NCBI GenBank assembly: GCA_020080175.1
Contig: JAGHQL010000032.1
Location: 104,285 to 168,284, forward strand
Direction: 5' to 3'
DNA length: 64,000 bases
Origin: Glutinoglossum americanum
Lineage: Eukaryota; Ascomycota; Geoglossomycetes; Geoglossales; Geoglossaceae
Every line of letters begins with the position of its first letter. The first letter of the stretch is position 1. Below, piece after piece: positions 56,555 through 64,000 of this stretch. A model generated the notes under the pieces. That model was not told the origin of the DNA and did no database searches. It saw only the letters and a list, made by a program, of their open reading frames with translations. Made by a program: the position numbers and the translations under genes.

Positions 56555-57168
56555 AGCGTGACGGCCTTACAAACCCCCATGTCTTGGCTCCAGAATGTGG
56601 AGGATCCTTTTGTTGCTATATGGGTCAATCCCATATGTGAGGAGGACGAATGCGAAACCCAGATGCGACAGCAAGTTCAAGAGATAATTGCCGAAGCTGT
56701 AGCGGAAGGGCAGGGTCGAAGAGCGTCGGGGCCTAGTACTGTAGAGAGGGGATGTAGGACAGTCGGTAGCAAAGAGTATATTAAAAAATGAGTGTGTATC
56801 CTATCGAGGTCGGCCTGGTTCTCCAAGAGCGGAGCTGACCAGAATCCATATACATGAAGTGCATCGACCTGCTATGGCCCCCTATGACCGCAATCGCCAC
56901 CCCAACCATTCAAAAAATTCAACCGTCAAACACTTCCGAATTAGGACTGGATACCCGGTCCACAGTACGAGTGTGGGAGATTATGGCTTGCGGAATATGT
57001 GGGAAGACGGAAGGGACGATAAGATGTGGGCGGTGCAAAGTAGCGGCATATTGTGGGAGAGCGCATCAGAGGGCGGGACTGAAAGGTGCACAAAAAAGAG
57101 TTGTATGCCCAAGGATAGGGGAAACTGTAGAAAATATGTTGTACGATAGATCAATTGATTGCTCGTAG
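56555..57168 (+). CDS. MYND zinc-finger protein, fragmented
   Basis: Two open blocks. The first (VEDPFVAIWVNPICEEDECE, QQVQEIIAEAVAEGQG) resembles the region that precedes MYND fingers in small fungal MYND proteins, and ends in a degraded CRTVGSKE. The second, starting at 56854, contains a full MYND finger, CGICGKTEGTIRCGRCKVAA, YCGRAHQRAGLKGAQKRVVC, before a stop at 57168. MYND fingers mediate protein-protein contacts. I could not connect the blocks with a convincing intron, so the locus may be a broken or partly duplicated MYND gene. Confidence 0.5.
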
Positions 57169-57881
57169 AGTTCCAAGTGACAAGAAGATTTATGCGCGAG
57201 ATAAAGGTTTCGCCCCGCCAAGATTCCAAAACAAGGAAATAGGGGCGGTGTAAAACTGTGCGGCTCCTATTTTCCACCAGGGGATACGTCACGGAGCGCC
57301 ACCATAATTACATCTGAAATCCAACAGAAACAGCGGAGAGAGGCATGTCTCTTAGAATGGAAGGTCACGGCTGGTTAGCGTGAAGAACTGGGGCAGGTTT
57401 AGAGTTGCAGCGTTTAGTTTGAAGGTGAGGAAGAGAACTCGATTGGATATCTACGTCTTGTCAAACTCAATTTGCTCTCCTTTTGCGGTGCGGCCGAGTT
57501 GCGCTGTCCGAAGTCAGGGATGGGACTGAGGTAAGTGAGGATTCTTCAGCATCAGCATTGGTTGATGGAGAAGGGCGGACGGAGGGCGAGTCGGTATTAT
57601 GCTCCGTATGGAGATCATGTCCGCCTCGCCTTGGCTCTGGCGGAGTTGTATCCATTTTCTGATGGGTCTGCTGCCTCATTGGCAGGTTCCAAGACTCGCG
57701 GTCTCTTCGAAGGGGTAGACGGAGTCGCCCAGCCCTCCCAACGAGTTGATCGTTTCGAAGGCGGGGTAGCGGTCGGAGTCAGTGGTGCCACGGCAGAGGC
57801 AGGTCTGGAAGGCGTTTATCTGCGCGGCGAAGCAGGCGATCCTGGCCTAATCGGCGCTGTTGGTCAGGCCGTCACTGCCTA
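57169..57881. other. Boundary region left of the bacterial-type operon
   Basis: 0.7 kb. The minus strand has an open Pro/Ser/Thr/Arg-rich frame (57467-57679; EESSLTSVPSLTSDSATRPH) that looks like disordered fungal coding sequence, possibly a truncated gene. GC content rises from about 57,660 toward the operon. The exact fungal-to-bacterial junction cannot be placed by eye. Confidence 0.4.
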
Positions 57882-59315
57882 TCAGTTATCTGCCAATATT
57901 TGCGCCAGGCTGCGCAGGCCGGGCAGGAAGAGATAGGCGCCGCCGCGCACGGTGACGAATTGCGGGAGGCCGCTGATAGTACGGGGATAGGCGCCGGTAT
58001 CGGTGTAGCTGAAGGCATCGCTCGGCTGCGCGCCGGCGAGTGGCAGACGGTTGCCGAGCAGCGGGTCCTGCTCGGCGGCGAGGCCGGCGAATTTGGCGCT
58101 GGCGGCCCAGGCGCCCTGGACGAATTCGAACTGGCGGGCGAGATTGGCGTTGAGGCAGACGAAATGTAGGCCAGCTTCCTGGTCGGCGCCCGTACCCTGC
58201 ATCGCGGCTTGCAGCACGATCACCGGGCCGTAGGGGCGGCCGCGGCGGGACAGGCGGTGGAAGCGGGCGGAGGCGACGGCATCGTGCATCGTGGTGCCGC
58301 TGAGGCCGACCGAGGAGATGAGATCGCGTAGGAAGCCGTGGCGGCCCTGCGGATCGTCGCTGCTGCGCGGATTGACGCGGCGGATATGCGCGCCGATCGG
58401 GCAGACGCGGCCATCAGGATCTTCGGCGAACAGGAAGGCGTTGCGCGGATCGTCGGTGCCCATGATCGTGGCGGACTCGAGCCCGGGTAGGGGAGCGCCG
58501 TCGAGTTCACGGCCGACCATGCGTTCGGCCAGCGCGATGGCGCCGTCGCCGGCTTGACGCGCCAGCCATTGCCAGAAGCCGGCGACATCCTGCGCTAGCT
58601 GGCGGTAGACCAGATAGGAGCCGTTGCGGCCCAGCTCGTTGGTGTGGGGGTAATCGCCGATGAAGCCGTATTCGTTAGGATAGCCGAGCAGCAACTCGCC
58701 CATCGCCAGCAGATTGCGATAATCGCGGTCGCGGGCGCCGCCGGGGGTGAGCGTGCCGCCCCAATCGTAGTCGGGCTGCGAGACGCCGTCGGCAAAGCCG
58801 AAAGGTTCGCGGCCGAGCGGGGTGGTGGTGGTGGTCGGGGTATTGCCGCTGATGACCGCGCAGCCGGCGGCGTGGGCGGCGCTGCATGTAGCTTGCGCCA
58901 GGCTGTCGATCGCGGTGTTTGCGGCAAGCAGGAGCAGCAGGATATGCGGCTCTTGTTCACCGACGCCCCAGTGCCAGTGGGCGGGGGCATTGGCGCCTTC
59001 GTCTCCCAGCAGATGCGAGCGGCGTTCGTCGCCGGCTATGCCGTCGATGAATTGCGGGTCGAAGCCCGCTCTGGGGGTGACCTCGGTGCCCAGCGCGCGC
59101 AGGCCAGCGGCGGTGAAGGCAATCTGGCAAACTTGCGACAGATGCTGCGTGCGGGCTTGCGCCAGCGAGGCGATGTCGAGGGTGCGCAGCCAGGGTTTGG
59201 CGAGCGCGGGATTTTCGATGCGCAGCAGCAGGTAGCAAGCGCCGGTGAGCGAACTGAAGCCGCGATCAGCTAGCGCCTGAATGTCGGCGGCTTCGTCGTT
59301 GGCGGCCATTCTCAT
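57882..59315 (-). CDS. DyP-type heme peroxidase of bacterial character
   Basis: Intronless 477-aa ORF. DyP peroxidases use hydrogen peroxide and heme to oxidise dyes, phenols and related compounds. The family motifs are all present: GFADG (173-177, the GxxDG motif) in PFGFADGVSQPDYDWGG, the proximal heme-ligand histidine in CPIGAHIRRVNPR (His 310), and the distal arginine region RFHRLSRRGRPYGPV (351-365). No signal peptide is visible. The start ATG overlaps the stop of the upstream ORF as ATGA; a second ATG two codons later sits 8 nt after GGAG, a standard ribosome-binding spacing. GC-rich codon use, absence of introns and the overlap are bacterial, unlike every neighbouring gene. Either horizontally acquired or a chimeric assembly. 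Confidence 0.9.
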   Translation of the reverse strand: MRMAANDEAADIQALADRGFSSLTGACYLLLRIENPALAKPWLRTLDIASLAQARTQHLSQVCQIAFTAAGLRALGTEVTPRAGFDPQFIDGIAGDERRSHLLGDEGANAPAHWHWGVGEQEPHILLLLLAANTAIDSLAQATCSAAHAAGCAVISGNTPTTTTTPLGREPFGFADGVSQPDYDWGGTLTPGGARDRDYRNLLAMGELLLGYPNEYGFIGDYPHTNELGRNGSYLVYRQLAQDVAGFWQWLARQAGDGAIALAERMVGRELDGAPLPGLESATIMGTDDPRNAFLFAEDPDGRVCPIGAHIRRVNPRSSDDPQGRHGFLRDLISSVGLSGTTMHDAVASARFHRLSRRGRPYGPVIVLQAAMQGTGADQEAGLHFVCLNANLARQFEFVQGAWAASAKFAGLAAEQDPLLGNRLPLAGAQPSDAFSYTDTGAYPRTISGLPQFVTVRGGAYLFLPGLRSLAQILADN

Positions 59316-59325
59316 ATCTCCGCGA
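59305..59325 (-). promoter_or_regulatory. Shine-Dalgarno-like site and ATGA translational coupling
   Basis: On the minus strand the junction reads GCGGAGATATGAGAATGG. TGA (59314..59312) ends the upstream ORF inside the ATG (59315..59313) of the peroxidase ORF, and GGAG precedes the second ATG by 8 nt. This arrangement is functional only in prokaryotic translation. Confidence 0.75.
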
Positions 59326-60613
59326 TCCAGGCTTGTAGCGCGGAGCCAGTCAGGTTTGCGGTGAGCCCTTGGCGGATGCGGGTGTTGCGGGCGAAATCAT
59401 AAGTGGTGAGGCCGGGCATGGCTTTGTACCAGACTTGCGTTGGGATCTGGTGGTGGAACAGGTAGCGCTTGAAATCCTGCTCGTGGCGGGCGCCGTCGAG
59501 GATCAGCCAGTTGGTTTGCGGGTAGCCGAGGCCGTTCGAGAAGGAGACGTTGAGCCCGAAGGCAACCTTGTTGATGAAATCGTCGTTATAGGCCTCGCGG
59601 CTGCCGTCGTAATTGCTGCCGAAGAACAGCCGCCGCTTGTCGTCGAGGAAGGTCCAGCTGGCGAAATGGATGGTGTTGACGCGACCTAGCCGACCGGTGT
59701 TGAAGAGGTGGCGGCCGCTCCAGTTGATGATCCAGAGGATGGCGACGGTCAGCCAGCGGCGGAAAAGGCCGGGTTTGAGCGAGCCGATGGCGCTGTACTG
59801 GTTAGTAACGTCACGGTCCTCGATCGAGGACAGCAGCTTGTTGCGCGCAATCGAGGGGACCGGGGCGAGCACGGGATCGTGGGTTTCGCGCCAGCGCAGC
59901 AGGAGGATGAGGAAAGGCAGGGCGGGGATGAGGAGCGGCGACAGCAGCAGCGCATATAGTGGCAGCAGCAGGAAATCGCCGATTTCCGCCAGTTTCTCGG
60001 CGAAGGTGGGGACGGGGAGCGGGGTAAGCGGTACGCTGCGCGCGGCGGTGAGCAAGATACCGCGCAATTGCTCGGGCGAGGCTTCAGGATGGGCGAGACG
60101 GGTTTGGCGCAGCGCAGTGTGGAGCGTGGCTTCTTCGCGGACTTGGGTCATGCTGCGGCCCGGCCAGTTGGCGTAGGTCGCGGCGGAGACGATGCGGTGG
60201 GCGCGGAGCCAGGCGAGCAAATCAGTGTGGGCGTCGAAATCGCTGCAGTGGCTGAAGATTTGTTGCAGGCCGGGGGTGGCGAGATGGACGAGCGTGCGCA
60301 GCAGATCGTCTGCGGTGCCGTCGCAATCGGCGATGAAGGCGAGGCGCAGCGGCTCGGTGGCCGGCAATTGCGGGGCGATTTGCTGCCGGTCGGGCAGCGA
60401 GGGGTCGTCGAGGATGACGAAGCGGGCGACGTGGATCGTGGGGATGTGGCCGAAGGGCAGCAGGGCATTGGCAGGGTCAGCGGTTCCTGGGGCGGCGTTC
60501 ATAGTTTCGAGCAAGGCGGCCAGTGCTTCCGCCGCGCCGGTGCGCACCGGCGCGGCGATGAAGATCTGGGACTGGCCTGCCACGGCTGACTTGGCCCGGG
60601 AATTCGAGTGCAA
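59312..60613 (-). CDS. Membrane-anchored partner protein of the DyP peroxidase, bacterial-type
   Basis: Intronless 433-codon frame. The frame opens with TTG at 60613; a GTG at 60583 (reading AGQSQIFIAAPVRTGAAEAL) is another candidate start, and no ATG lies near. The N-terminal part reads IPTIHVARFVILDDPSLPD and FSHCSDFDAHTDLLAWLRAH. A hydrophobic membrane segment follows (FLLLPLYALLLSPLLIPALP). The C-terminal part reads IHFASWTFLDDKRRLFFGSN, YDGSREAYNDDFINKV and TQVWYKAMPGLTTYDFARN. The repeated 'ARFV.LDD / ASWTFLDD' plus 'NYDGS..Y.DDF' looks like a duplicated ferredoxin-like sensor or dimeric alpha-beta module. Bacterial genomes carry such proteins next to DyP peroxidases (from memory, not checked). 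It would be co-translated with the peroxidase and could tether it to the membrane (inference). Confidence 0.75.
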   Translation of the reverse strand: MHSNSRAKSAVAGQSQIFIAAPVRTGAAEALAALLETMNAAPGTADPANALLPFGHIPTIHVARFVILDDPSLPDRQQIAPQLPATEPLRLAFIADCDGTADDLLRTLVHLATPGLQQIFSHCSDFDAHTDLLAWLRAHRIVSAATYANWPGRSMTQVREEATLHTALRQTRLAHPEASPEQLRGILLTAARSVPLTPLPVPTFAEKLAEIGDFLLLPLYALLLSPLLIPALPFLILLLRWRETHDPVLAPVPSIARNKLLSSIEDRDVTNQYSAIGSLKPGLFRRWLTVAILWIINWSGRHLFNTGRLGRVNTIHFASWTFLDDKRRLFFGSNYDGSREAYNDDFINKVAFGLNVSFSNGLGYPQTNWLILDGARHEQDFKRYLFHHQIPTQVWYKAMPGLTTYDFARNTRIRQGLTANLTGSALQAWIAEI

Positions 60614-61357
60614 AATCGAACAGTGTCTCAGAAGACGTTGTTGAGATGGAATTGGGCGCGATCAGGCGGATTTTGTCGCGGATGCGCGAGGCGAGGATCG
60701 AGGTTTTGGAATAGTCGAGTACGATGCAGGGCCTCTGGTCGAACCAGCTGGTGCTTTTATAGGCTTTCGCCCAACGGCAGGATATGGTTGAGCAGGAAGC
60801 TAGGCGAATGGATTGATGGCGCCGGCGGTTCCCAAGGAGAACAGCGTGTCCAGTTCGGGTGTCAGAGGGCGACGGCAGTCGTCCTCTTGGGTTCTATTTG
60901 GATAAGTATGTCACGTGGAGGTGAAGGGACCAAGATATCGCCAACAACACGACTTGTTAGCTGTGCAAATAGCCTTCAAGTCGATACGCCTTGATTGTAT
61001 AATCCAAGGACGTCCAACAACCCAAAGAGTAACAGCTGAGGGAGGAGGAGATATAAAACCCCTGAGGGTGGCTGGAGAGGGGCTGGCGACGCCACATGGT
61101 CACATGGCATCGCCCAGTTGATCTCACCAGCCCCCTGGGCCAATATCTATCTCAGAGAGGGATCACGTCGAGTTGCATGCCAATAGCGAGCGACTCGCCC
61201 ACGATCCAGGTGCAATAGGAGTTCCCTTTTACAATAAGGCCCCCGCTTCTGAGAGAGTTGGGAGACACTGGACTCCATTGGCGCTCTCTACGGCTATACA
61301 ATCCATCAAACACGATAACGACGCTGCATAACCAGTGCCCAAGCAGAGCAGATCTGT
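60614..61357. other. Right boundary of bacterial-type DNA and intergenic region
   Basis: About 60,614-60,880 is still GC-rich. Its minus strand contains WFDQRPCIVLDYSKTSILAS and RIRDKIRLIAPN, in a frame that is not open to a start, resembling the tail of a bacterial protein and suggesting a third, degraded or partial operon gene. From about 60,900 composition returns to that of the host. No fungal gene was recognised before the heme-thiolate peroxidase. Confidence 0.45.
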
Positions 61358-62374
61358 TTACATGATAACGCAGCAACTTGGAAGAAGGCTGGTGACTGCA
61401 TTCTGTACTGCATGCACCGTTCCAAGTCCGACCTCTAAAGCCTCCGCCGAGTTATGCTCATTTGCTTGAATCAGATTGGAGATGGAATGGCCCAAATCTT
61501 TTAGAGTAATTGGGTGTGCAGCTGGTCTCCAGCCTTCTTCGTACGGAAGACGCTCCTCCTCTATGGAAAATTGTTTAGCATATAGCAGCCGTGCACACAA
61601 GTCTTCTCTTACCGACAACAATTTTGAGATATTCCACTGGAATCTTTCCATTCTTTGGATCGCCTAACAAACTCATCAATATCGCGGTTTCCTACGCAGG
61701 ATATGGTTTAGCCGCTGATGGAGTCAACCACAAGACATGAACTTACACCGTAGCTGAGAATAACCTCCTTGATCCCATATATAAACTCCTTATTGGCGGC
61801 TTCATGGGCCTTTTTACAAGCAATTACACGGTTATACCTAGCCTCACTGGCCAGTGCAAAGTTGGTCTCTTTACTATCACCATAAGTACCCAGGACGCTC
61901 TTCCAAATGTCTGGATTGAAGGTATGGTTGTCGCCAAACGCAATGTCGTCTCGAGTTAGTGATACATCATGTTCAATAAGTCCATGCTTGCTGACATGGT
62001 TCAAATCAAACGAGTGTGCATGTGCGTCTGGGTTGGTGGTGAGGGCGACGCTAGCAAAGATTTTGGCAATGTCCGCATCAAGGTTGATGGCATTGGTCAT
62101 GGCTTTTACGGCCATTTCCTTGGTGACTCCCTTGCCATCGCGCGGTAGCACGCCGTGATTTGCAAGGCTGTGCAGTCAAAAGCTTAGAATCCCAGAACAT
62201 TATTTGGACGTTTTGGACAATACCTGTTTAACACTGGGCACGGTGAGCGAACTAAAGTATATTAGTGAGCTAGACCGCAAATCGGCATAAACATCAAATA
62301 CCTTCACCCGATTCGGGGGTTCTCCATTTGGTCCAATCGATCTCTGGGTGATTTGGTGGTGACTTGGCCGCCAT
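61358..62374 (-). CDS. Heme-thiolate peroxidase (chloroperoxidase / unspecific peroxygenase family)
   Basis: Five exons, 62374..62302, 62251..62224, 62167..61747, 61691..61613 and 61560..61358; every phase closes, giving 267 aa, a short intracellular-type member. The family uses peroxide and a Cys-ligated heme for halogenation or oxygenation. The heme-ligand motif is PCPVLN (Cys 29), encoded by a 28-nt exon. Then LANHGVLPRDGKGVTKEM, HSFDLNHVSKHGLIEHDVSL with the EHD acid-base triad (Glu 99), DIWKSVL, ARYNRVIACKKAHEAANKEF, YGE-TAILMSLLGDP and EEERLPYEEGW. All catalytic residues are present. No signal peptide precedes MAAKSPPNHPEIDWTKWRTP; the start could be further upstream. It lies ~0.75 kb from the bacterial-type peroxidase operon. 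Confidence 0.92.
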
Positions 62375-62621: not shown

Positions 62622-63483
62622 CAGTAGTGTCAAAAAAGTGTTCGTACACCCACAAAAATGCGACACGCAACTAAAACTGCTCGAACACAATGAATTCTTA
62701 TCGGATTAAGGTAAAAAGTGAATCAAAAAAAAGAGAATAGGCTATATAATCTTTTTAGTACTTAATAGGACCTCCTTTATTAAGTAAAACCATGTCAATT
62801 TGCTTCCTCATACTGCGCGTACATGCCAACACCTCCACACTTGATAGCTTAGCCCATTCCTCCTGAGCAGCCTGCTGCATCTCCTCAATACTTTGAATTC
62901 TATGCCTTCTAGCATTTATTTTTCGCTTGAGAATAGCCCAAAGGTTCTCAATAGGATTGAGATCTGGTGATTGGGCTGGCCACCACATGCGAGGAACTCG
63001 ATTTTTTGTCCTCCATCCGATTGCCAATTTTGCTGTATGCCATTTTGCATTATCATCCATAGTCTGAAATCGTTTCTCCTTAGCTGCTTTTTGCATTTTT
63101 GTCAAAAATGGCTTTAGATGCTGTTTTAGGATGTCGTTGGTATAGGTAGTCGCATTCATTCGTCGACCTTCAGGTGAAAATACCAATGGTCCAACTGTAC
63201 CACCACATACTGCACCCCAAGCACTAGTTGACACCCGACCACTTTTAAAAGAAGGTTTGAGATTTTTTTCAAGGTATTCCTCTCCTGGTCGCCTAGTTAC
63301 CCATATTGTCTTACTGTCCTTGCCAATTTCAAAAGTGACTTCATCTGTCCAAATAACACTGTCCCAATCTTCTTGACTCCAGTTCTTATGTTCTTTACAC
63401 CATTTAACTCTTGCTTTTTTATGTGCAGCTGACATAAAAGGCTTCTTTCTTGCTTTTCTTTTATTTAATCCTGCCTTTTTTGT
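62622..63483 (-). mobile_element. Tc1/mariner element, truncated, with transposase catalytic domain
   Basis: The right end starts at 62622 with CAGTAGTGTCAAAAAAGTGT, preceded by TA, the target dinucleotide of Tc1/mariner elements. Inside, on the minus strand, the transposase runs to a stop at 62755. The opposite end of the element was not found: similarity stops near 63,483, where GC-rich unrelated DNA begins. Confidence 0.8.
62755..63483 (-). pseudogene. Tc1-like DDE transposase lacking its N-terminal DNA-binding part
   Basis: The frame reads SAAHKKARVKWCKEHKNWSQ, then SVIWTDEVTFEIGKDSKTIW (first catalytic Asp), GRRMNATTYTNDIL, TMDDNAKWHTAKLA (second Asp), and AQSPDLNPIENLWAILKRKI with the final Glu; the last two catalytic residues are 34 apart in Tc1-like style. 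The open frame extends upstream (KKAGLNKRKARKKPF) to about 63,483 and then ends abruptly. The helix-turn-helix paired-type N-terminus (normally ~110 residues) is absent, so the copy cannot move by itself. The catalytic domain has no internal stop, which suggests a rather recent truncation. Confidence 0.88.
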
Positions 63484-64000
63484 GACGGCTGCTTATATAA
63501 GCTGGGCCGCGAAGGTTGGGTGCCGCGGGCGTCAAGGCCGAGCTAGCCCTAAGAGGCCGGTCACGACGGAGCAAGGGGGGGCCGGTTGTGTGGCACGACG
63601 GAAGGGTAGGCCTAATGGTCCTTGATAGTCTATCTAATGTGATTATGGTATTGACCGATGAGGTTCCCTTCCGGACCCTCCTCGGCCTTCTATATATACT
63701 AATGGCCCTGAGGGGCCCACGGGTAGGGACCTGCCCGGTTCCCTCCATGGACGTGTACGGACCCCTTGCCTCCGGCCGTGCTTCCGTTGGGAAGTCCTTA
63801 TGATGCCCATGTGGTTCCTTCGCCACCGGCCGTGCTCCTATGTGGAGTTCCTACGATGCCGTGCGGTTCCTTCGCCGCCGGCCGTGCTCCCATATGGAGT
63901 TCCCACGACGCCCGTGCGGTTCCTTCGCCGGCCGTGCTCCCATGTGGAGTTCCTATGATGACGTCATTGGTGGGGCCTTGCGGGCCCCCCTCGTATGTCA
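63484..64000. other. GC-rich window end with minisatellite
   Basis: About 0.5 kb of GC-rich DNA with repeated CCGGCCGTGCT and GGTTCC words. The 95-codon plus ORF at 63516-63803 and the minus ORF at 63461-63826 have repeat-derived sequence and are not called. Confidence 0.5.
63770..63960. repeat. 52-53 bp minisatellite
   Basis: The anchor GGTTCCTTCGCC recurs at 63813, 63865 and 63918, followed each time by CCGGCCGTGCTCC..ATGTGGAGTTCC. A degenerate earlier unit lies at about 63,770. The array runs to near the window end. Confidence 0.8.

Follow-up and report, generated by a model that had tools for sequence, protein, structure and literature searches.

Few cases of horizontal operon transfer into fungi are known. 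Operons for thiamine salvage and for enterobactin (Kominek 2019) have entered yeasts of the Wickerhamiella/Starmerella group horizontally, according to the available portion of PMC13376923, and none of the cases cited in the accessible part of PMC11952965 retained the original operon structure, their layout having been lost. Among the titles listed by a literature search that had most subscription papers outside its reach, none reports a sphingomonad operon in a fungus. Here we describe a GC-rich island in the genome assembly of the geoglossomycete Glutinoglossum americanum that carries two overlapping open reading frames (ORFs), A and a DyP-type peroxidase ORF (hereafter DyP), next to the remnant of a third gene, gene 1. 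The stretch analysed, called the window below, is 64,000 bases long and forms the last 64 kb of the 168,284-base contig JAGHQL010000032.1, in a host genome of 25.8 Mb and 317 contigs. It is highly probable that the island is a real fragment of a bacterial operon, and on balance we favour the reading that it arrived by horizontal transfer and that A and DyP have since been maintained by selection in the fungus.

Layout of the island

All parts of the island lie on the minus strand. Read in that direction, the decayed 3' remnant of gene 1 (60591..60839) is followed by ORF A (59312..60583; 423 amino acids, counted from the GTG that aligns with the bacterial starts) and by DyP (57882..59315; 477 amino acids). 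The mechanical frame of A opens at a TTG and is slightly longer, 433 codons from 60613 to 59312. Its stop codon (59312–59314, minus strand) shares bases with the first ATG of DyP in an ATGA overlap at 59312..59315. The three 1-kb bins of the island have a GC content of 62–69%, against 44–57% in the remaining 61 bins of the window. The original prediction of two GC-rich ORFs that share an ATGA therefore holds, and both ORFs are intact. The ORFs are also intronless, as had been stated, but this does not set them apart, since a further 14 mechanical ORFs of 220 codons or more are listed in the window, one of them of 1568 amino acids. The GGAG that had been noted at the junction is present (59318..59321, minus strand), but it is made of the codons of the conserved A-E-I ending of A and stands only 2 nt before the overlapping ATG. 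It is 8 nt before a second DyP ATG, two codons in, which is probably the likelier bacterial start of the two.

The extent first given to the island, 57882–60613, proved too short. Detectable bacterial homology stops at the DyP stop codon on one side and reaches about 60839 on the gene 1 side, where 60771–60839 beats the shuffled maximum in six of nine kin loci (the exceptions are L004, L011 and L010). Upstream of 60840 alignments stayed below the shuffled maximum with all nine loci. The 3' flank (57600–57881) was likewise tried as bacterial DNA and rejected, local alignments being below the shuffled maximum with nine of nine loci; its marginal score of 95 with L010 compares with a shuffled mean of 78 and maximum of 107. 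No RNA families or tRNAs were found within the window, and its counts of putative sigma-70 promoters and terminators are no higher than in shuffled sequence.

Bacterial relatives of the island

Searched with A, the genome contigs of bacteria and archaea yielded nine loci (54–69% identity), all in sphingomonads or their close kin of the genera Novosphingobium, Sphingobium, Sphingomonas and Pontixanthobacter; with nine such relatives A is no chance ORF. DyP is 56–63% identical to its homologues in eight genomes (633 bits to a sphingomonad DyP), the best of which, in genome G455, shares 63% over 476 columns (64% in the multiple alignment). Of 195 genomes from Novosphingobium, the genus of G001, nine carry a full-length A at 59–69%, some of these being loci already counted among L003–L011, and 37 have any match at all. 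In the family of G003, four of 397 sampled genomes carry a full-length A at 55–69%, and 39 have any match, two of these full-length at 47%. Judged from these genome sequences, A is a sporadic gene even among bacteria. In a midpoint-rooted tree the A of the window falls inside a group with 14 Sphingomonadales that has 100/100 support, its position within the group being unsupported; in the midpoint-rooted DyP tree (from whose alignment L092, a partial match, was excluded) the window shares an unsupported fork with these sequences and belongs to no supported group.

Composition points the same way. The tetranucleotide correlation (r) of the island is 0.93–0.94 with the Novosphingobium loci L003, L004 and L006, 0.925 with L005 and 0.73 with L010, and only 0.03 with the fungal flank; 2.7-kb pieces of that flank, used as a control, correlate with the flank at a median r of 0.65 and a minimum of 0.12. 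The k-mer comparison with the flanks that had been proposed at the outset thus comes out as Novosphingobium-like, and the bacterial origin suggested there is supported, with the sphingomonads as donor group by the homology of both proteins and the tree of A. A plasmid was considered as nearest donor and set aside, the best plasmid match to A among 42 records in all being 40% identical over 40% of the query. In several plasmid records, "cytochrome P450" is the annotation given to A-like regions.

Sixteen kin loci (L003–L011, L085–L087 and L089–L092) were examined for gene content. The bacterial order is gene 1, A, DyP in Novosphingobium, Sphingobium and Sphingomonas, and the gene 1 remnant, A and DyP of the window are collinear with it. 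None of them lacks gene 1 (~146 amino acids) near A: in 15 it lies immediately upstream, and in L090 it is ~1.7–1.9 kb upstream. Every locus also has DyP after A, although in L092 it is only a partial match (39%). Within the limits set by the ends of the available locus DNA, a catalase-like gene is present in 14 of the 16 loci, downstream of DyP in nine and on the gene 1 side in five (L008, L009, L011, L089 and L090), and a GMC oxidoreductase gene in 10; in L003 and L005 both of these genes have a convergent orientation relative to DyP. Ten of the 16 loci have an ATGA where A meets DyP, and the other six an ATG a few bases past the stop. By inspection, the earliest usable A start before codon 28 is GTG, as in the window, in six loci (L006, L008, L010, L086, L087 and L089).

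Judged from the bacterial sequences and the host genome, it is very improbable that the two genes are an old fungal family which merely resembles bacterial genes. DyPs are known in fungi, the best Protein Data Bank (PDB) match of DyP is a "Peroxidase, putative" (135 bits), and homologues of gene 1 and of the catalase-like gene are present elsewhere in the same genome (see below); against this reading stand the 633 bits to a sphingomonad DyP, the operon order, stop/start overlap and gene 1 remnant that the window has in common with bacteria, and the finding of no second DyP in the host genome.

Decay of gene 1

In each of the 16 kin loci examined, the frame of gene 1 is open. Aligned with its kin, the 249-bp remnant has four gaps of non-triplet length (29, 17, 1 and 8 bp) and, in the ancestral frame, a TGG that has become TGA, while the 2702 bp of A and DyP have no frame breaks at all. 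The chance that all four gaps fall inside the remnant is 5e-5 if gaps are uniform and independent. Residues that are invariant in 14 of the 16 kin loci (L091 and L092, more distant at 46% in A, were left out) are changed at nine of 35 positions in the remnant, counted in a frame-aware manner, and at three of 141 in A and seven of 152 in DyP (Fisher test: remnant against A 2.7e-5, against DyP 4.7e-4). No bacterial row has more than two of 37 invariant gene 1 codons changed. The distance at codon positions 1 and 2 between the remnant and its nearest kin is 0.197, and in the pairs L005–L006 and L005–L011, which are similarly divergent in A, it is 0.068 and 0.076, an excess of ~0.12 for the remnant over comparable kin pairs. 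These contrasts in gaps, residues and distance indicate that gene 1 has been under much less constraint than A and DyP. From the sequence comparison, the decay would have taken place either in the fungus, where A and DyP would then have been under selection, or in a donor outside the sample.

The encoded proteins and their putative function

In DyP, D176 (in GFADG), H310 (in GAHIRR) and R357 (in RRGRPYGP) align with the conserved DyP residues that we take to be the distal aspartate, proximal histidine and distal arginine of catalysis. Its best family is TIGR01413, with a score of 74.1 under the curated cut-off of 100.5, and its Pfam scores are also below the cut-offs (17.9 against 27.5 and 17.1 against 20). 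An intact Sphingobium DyP homologue likewise reaches only 19.1 against the cut-off of 20 with Pfam PF20628, which indicates that the family models fit this DyP subfamily poorly.

ORF A has no Pfam or NCBIfam family over the cut-off. Its predicted structure (predicted local distance difference test score, pLDDT, 80.6 for the best of five models and 62.3 for the worst) has a long helix, hydrophobic by eye, that links two alpha+beta barrel domains, and its best Foldseek match is the SchA/ABM-like 9lmn (E 2e-5, template-modelling (TM) score 0.38). A is a candidate for the tandem ferredoxin-like barrel fold of that group. The gene 1 protein is modelled as a calycin/FABP-like barrel (pLDDT 79.7) with a structure match to 4mve (E 5e-5), after which come FABP-like barrels at E 0.06 or worse; by sequence it had only weak PDB matches, chiefly L9 (best E 0.067). 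The lone weak PDB match of the catalase-like protein is allene oxide synthase-lipoxygenase (E 0.02).

In two more distant sphingomonad-group genomes (loci L093–L095 entered only this comparison), an A-like and a DyP-like part are fused in one ORF of 1035 and 1517 amino acids respectively, suggesting that the functions of A and DyP are tied together. These fused ORFs lie at L093:2315-5419 and L095:2664-7214 (minus strand), and the longer one has a P450 domain.

From these models we infer that the bacterial cluster may use H2O2 to oxidise a hydrophobic substrate at a membrane. The GMC oxidase would supply the H2O2, the calycin-like barrel of gene 1 would bind the hydrophobic substrate, and A, as a membrane-anchored SchA/ABM-like alpha+beta barrel, would present it to the DyP peroxidase for oxidation; a peroxide would be the substrate of the catalase-like haemoprotein.

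The island in its fungal surroundings

The DNA on both sides of the island is fungal. On one side is a MYND zinc-finger ORF (56854..57165, plus strand) and, closer to the island, a 56-codon open frame (57679..57846, minus strand) that is preceded by a splice-acceptor-like stretch (CTGAC...TTAG) and whose sole match in the host genome is itself; from its sequence it is possibly a fungal terminal exon, and the insertion may have taken place within a fungal gene or next to one. On the other side are an exon of Peroxidase_2 (Peroxidase, family 2; 61708..62151, minus strand) and a transposase-like ORF (62755..63435, minus strand), presumably of Tc1/mariner type, parts of which recur on contigs C23 and C53. 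The Peroxidase_2 exon is 0.9 kb from the island, so that two unrelated peroxidase types adjoin there. The contig ends 3.2 kb from the island in a dispersed repeat (63481..64000, plus strand) behind the transposase-like ORF, with copies on many contigs of the assembly. The last 3.15 kb of the contig have at least 77 matching pieces, itself included (among the best 40 of 105 candidates). The longer matches to the contig-end repeat, dozens of copies, are 76–98% alike.

The original prediction left the choice between a horizontal transfer and a chimeric assembly, and of these the transfer is much the better supported. That bacterial DNA, from a contaminant or otherwise, was misjoined into a fungal contig is improbable, although the composition of the island is fully bacterial and the contig stops in a repeat so near to it. 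Two false joins ~3 kb apart would be needed, with fungal DNA on either side, and there are no N bases within 56–62 kb. A plain chimera should hold intact bacterial genes up to its breakpoint, and what lies there is a frame-broken, unconstrained copy of gene 1, whose counterparts in the 16 kin loci are all open; a decayed gene inside the bacterial piece argues against a simple misjoin or contaminant. A bacterial model of small-subunit (SSU) ribosomal RNA found one gene in the host assembly, in DNA of 13–36% GC and evidently mitochondrial, and no trace of a bacterial genome beyond it among the best five of 454 candidates. Fungal assemblies may be screened for whole bacterial contigs, and their absence is for that reason no proof. 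DyP was found in one copy in the host genome.

Homologues elsewhere in the fungal genome

An intact gene 1 homologue is present on another contig of the same assembly (G000:C47:31947-32363; 62% identity, in an open frame of 149 codons), as is an uninterrupted homologue of the catalase-like gene (G000:C251:14817-15977; 52%, in an open frame of 461 codons), the one match to that gene in the genome. The GMC query gave five partial matches only, and neither the catalase-like nor the GMC gene was found at the island locus. Among kin whose A is 66–70% identical to that of L005, identity to L005 is 76–84% for gene 1 and 57–78% for the catalase-like protein.

Possible selection and expression in the fungus

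The favoured history would begin with the horizontal transfer of a fragment of a sphingomonad oxidative cluster, comprising the 3' part of gene 1 and the whole of A and DyP, and its integration near what is now a repeat-bearing contig end of the fungus. Gene 1 would then have decayed in place while selection kept A and DyP. The island would supply A and DyP to the fungus, whose gene 1 and catalase-like homologues lie elsewhere in the genome. The sequences show the origin, the gene order and the unequal decay of the genes; selection within the fungus, expression and function are putative.

A number of observations weigh against this history. Gene 1 may already have been decayed in the donor. 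Its last two gaps jointly restore the frame, so that the remnant lies within an open frame of 138 codons, and the TGA is a stop in the ancestral frame only. The wider pairs L005–L008 and L005–L090 have gene 1 distances of 0.144 and 0.114 (at A distances of 0.257 and 0.280), which narrow the excess of the remnant. The end branches of the window are 0.40 and 0.48 long, against 0.04–0.38 for its four nearest kin, and its proportion of changed invariant DyP residues, 4.6%, is the second highest of 15. A keeps its bacterial GTG start, with no ATG for 27 codons, and a start at codon 28 would remove the first predicted beta strand. A scan for a fungal 5' exon of A found none; 100 shuffled sequences also gave none, and the scan is hence without power. 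No intron that would fuse A to DyP was found in a scan that had no control. The composition is unameliorated, with a GC content at third codon positions (GC3) of 0.82 in the island, 0.57–0.91 in kin and 0.52 in fungal ORFs. Finally, the gene 1 homologue on C47 clearly, and the catalase-like homologue on C251 slightly, have diverged further than would be expected had one donor supplied everything; they may have been acquired earlier or separately, or belong to fungal families.

The composition was also considered as a clock and proved uninformative: 13% neutral synonymous change would lower GC3 by just 0.03–0.06, a shift too small for GC3 to date the transfer.

A less favoured but substantial alternative is that the transfer was recent and is silent, gene 1 having been broken in the donor or at integration and A and DyP being intact because little time has passed. 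As a silent arrival would, the island has kept the GTG start, the ATGA overlap and the GGAG, and its usage of codons, tetranucleotides and GC3 is still bacterial; no fungal start or intron was found for A. However, gene 1 is open in every one of the 16 kin loci, so that decay in the donor is not the observed pattern, and four separate gaps with scattered substitutions over 249 bp resemble prolonged neutral decay more than the trace of a single integration event.

If A and DyP are indeed in use in the fungus, a fungal transcript would read the island from the minus strand. A would start at its first in-frame ATG (60500..60502, minus strand; codon 28 counted from the GTG) or in an exon further upstream that escaped the scan. 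DyP would be translated by reinitiation at the junction of the two ORFs (ATGA/AGAATGG), or from a transcript of its own. Two DyP ATGs lie at this junction, and the second is in AGAATGG, from its sequence probably a good start context. The original prediction that the second ORF could not be translated as in a bacterium was too strong, since fungi can reinitiate on bicistronic messages: this is described in the available parts of PMC10352335 for IGG6, with a 9-bp spacer, and of PMC11952965 for selected yeast, and polycistronic transcripts of Agaricomycetes involve up to 8% of transcribed genes according to the accessible part of PMC4503453. It is the first ORF, with its GTG start, that is the harder expression problem. 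We think it rather unlikely that A and DyP are expressed as an unremodelled bicistron. Equally doubtful is a fuller version, in which the fungus would run the sphingomonad oxidation pathway in pieces, with the gene-1-like and catalase-like proteins made from other contigs and A and DyP from the unremodelled bicistron by stop/start reinitiation; gene 1 would then have been free to decay at the island because a working copy is present elsewhere.

Comparison with known systems

The island resembles the sphingomonad gene 1–A–DyP cluster (L003–L011 and L085–L090) in gene order, in the stop/start overlap and in the 54–69% identity of A, and differs from it in that its gene 1 is a remnant and that no catalase-like or GMC gene was found at the locus. 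Its DyP has the GxxDG, His and Arg motifs of the DyP-type peroxidases and matches TIGR01413 best, with a score below the curated cut-off (74.1 against 100.5). The predicted fold of A is most like the SchA/ABM-like proteins WhiE-ORFI (9lmn) and Abx(+)O (9ltx), its best Foldseek matches at E ~2e-5, from which it differs by its low identity (8–11%), a TM score of 0.34–0.39 by query and the extra long interdomain helix.

A fungal message with two cistrons has parallels in IGG6 and in the Agaricomycete transcripts, and translation of a second cistron is shown for IGG6; as far as the available parts of PMC10352335 and PMC4503453 describe them, those systems are native fungal or engineered and have spacers, unlike the ATGA overlap of the island.

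An intact overlapping pair beside a decayed operon neighbour is a built-in neutral clock, and it makes testable in nature how a eukaryote first comes to use a bacterial operon. If the island is silent, it is a multi-gene fragment still caught between arrival and decay; if it is real and in use, it is a rare instance of a fungus that has preserved the layout of a bacterial operon. Like the Wickerhamiella/Starmerella transfers, in which, as set out in the available portion of PMC13376923, the operon was integrated and then adapted, it would place a bacterial metabolic operon in a fungal nuclear genome. Unlike those cases, it comes from another donor group with another chemistry, and it keeps the stop/start overlap and the GTG start, so that the operon layout is retained for two cistrons, which would be new if they are functional.

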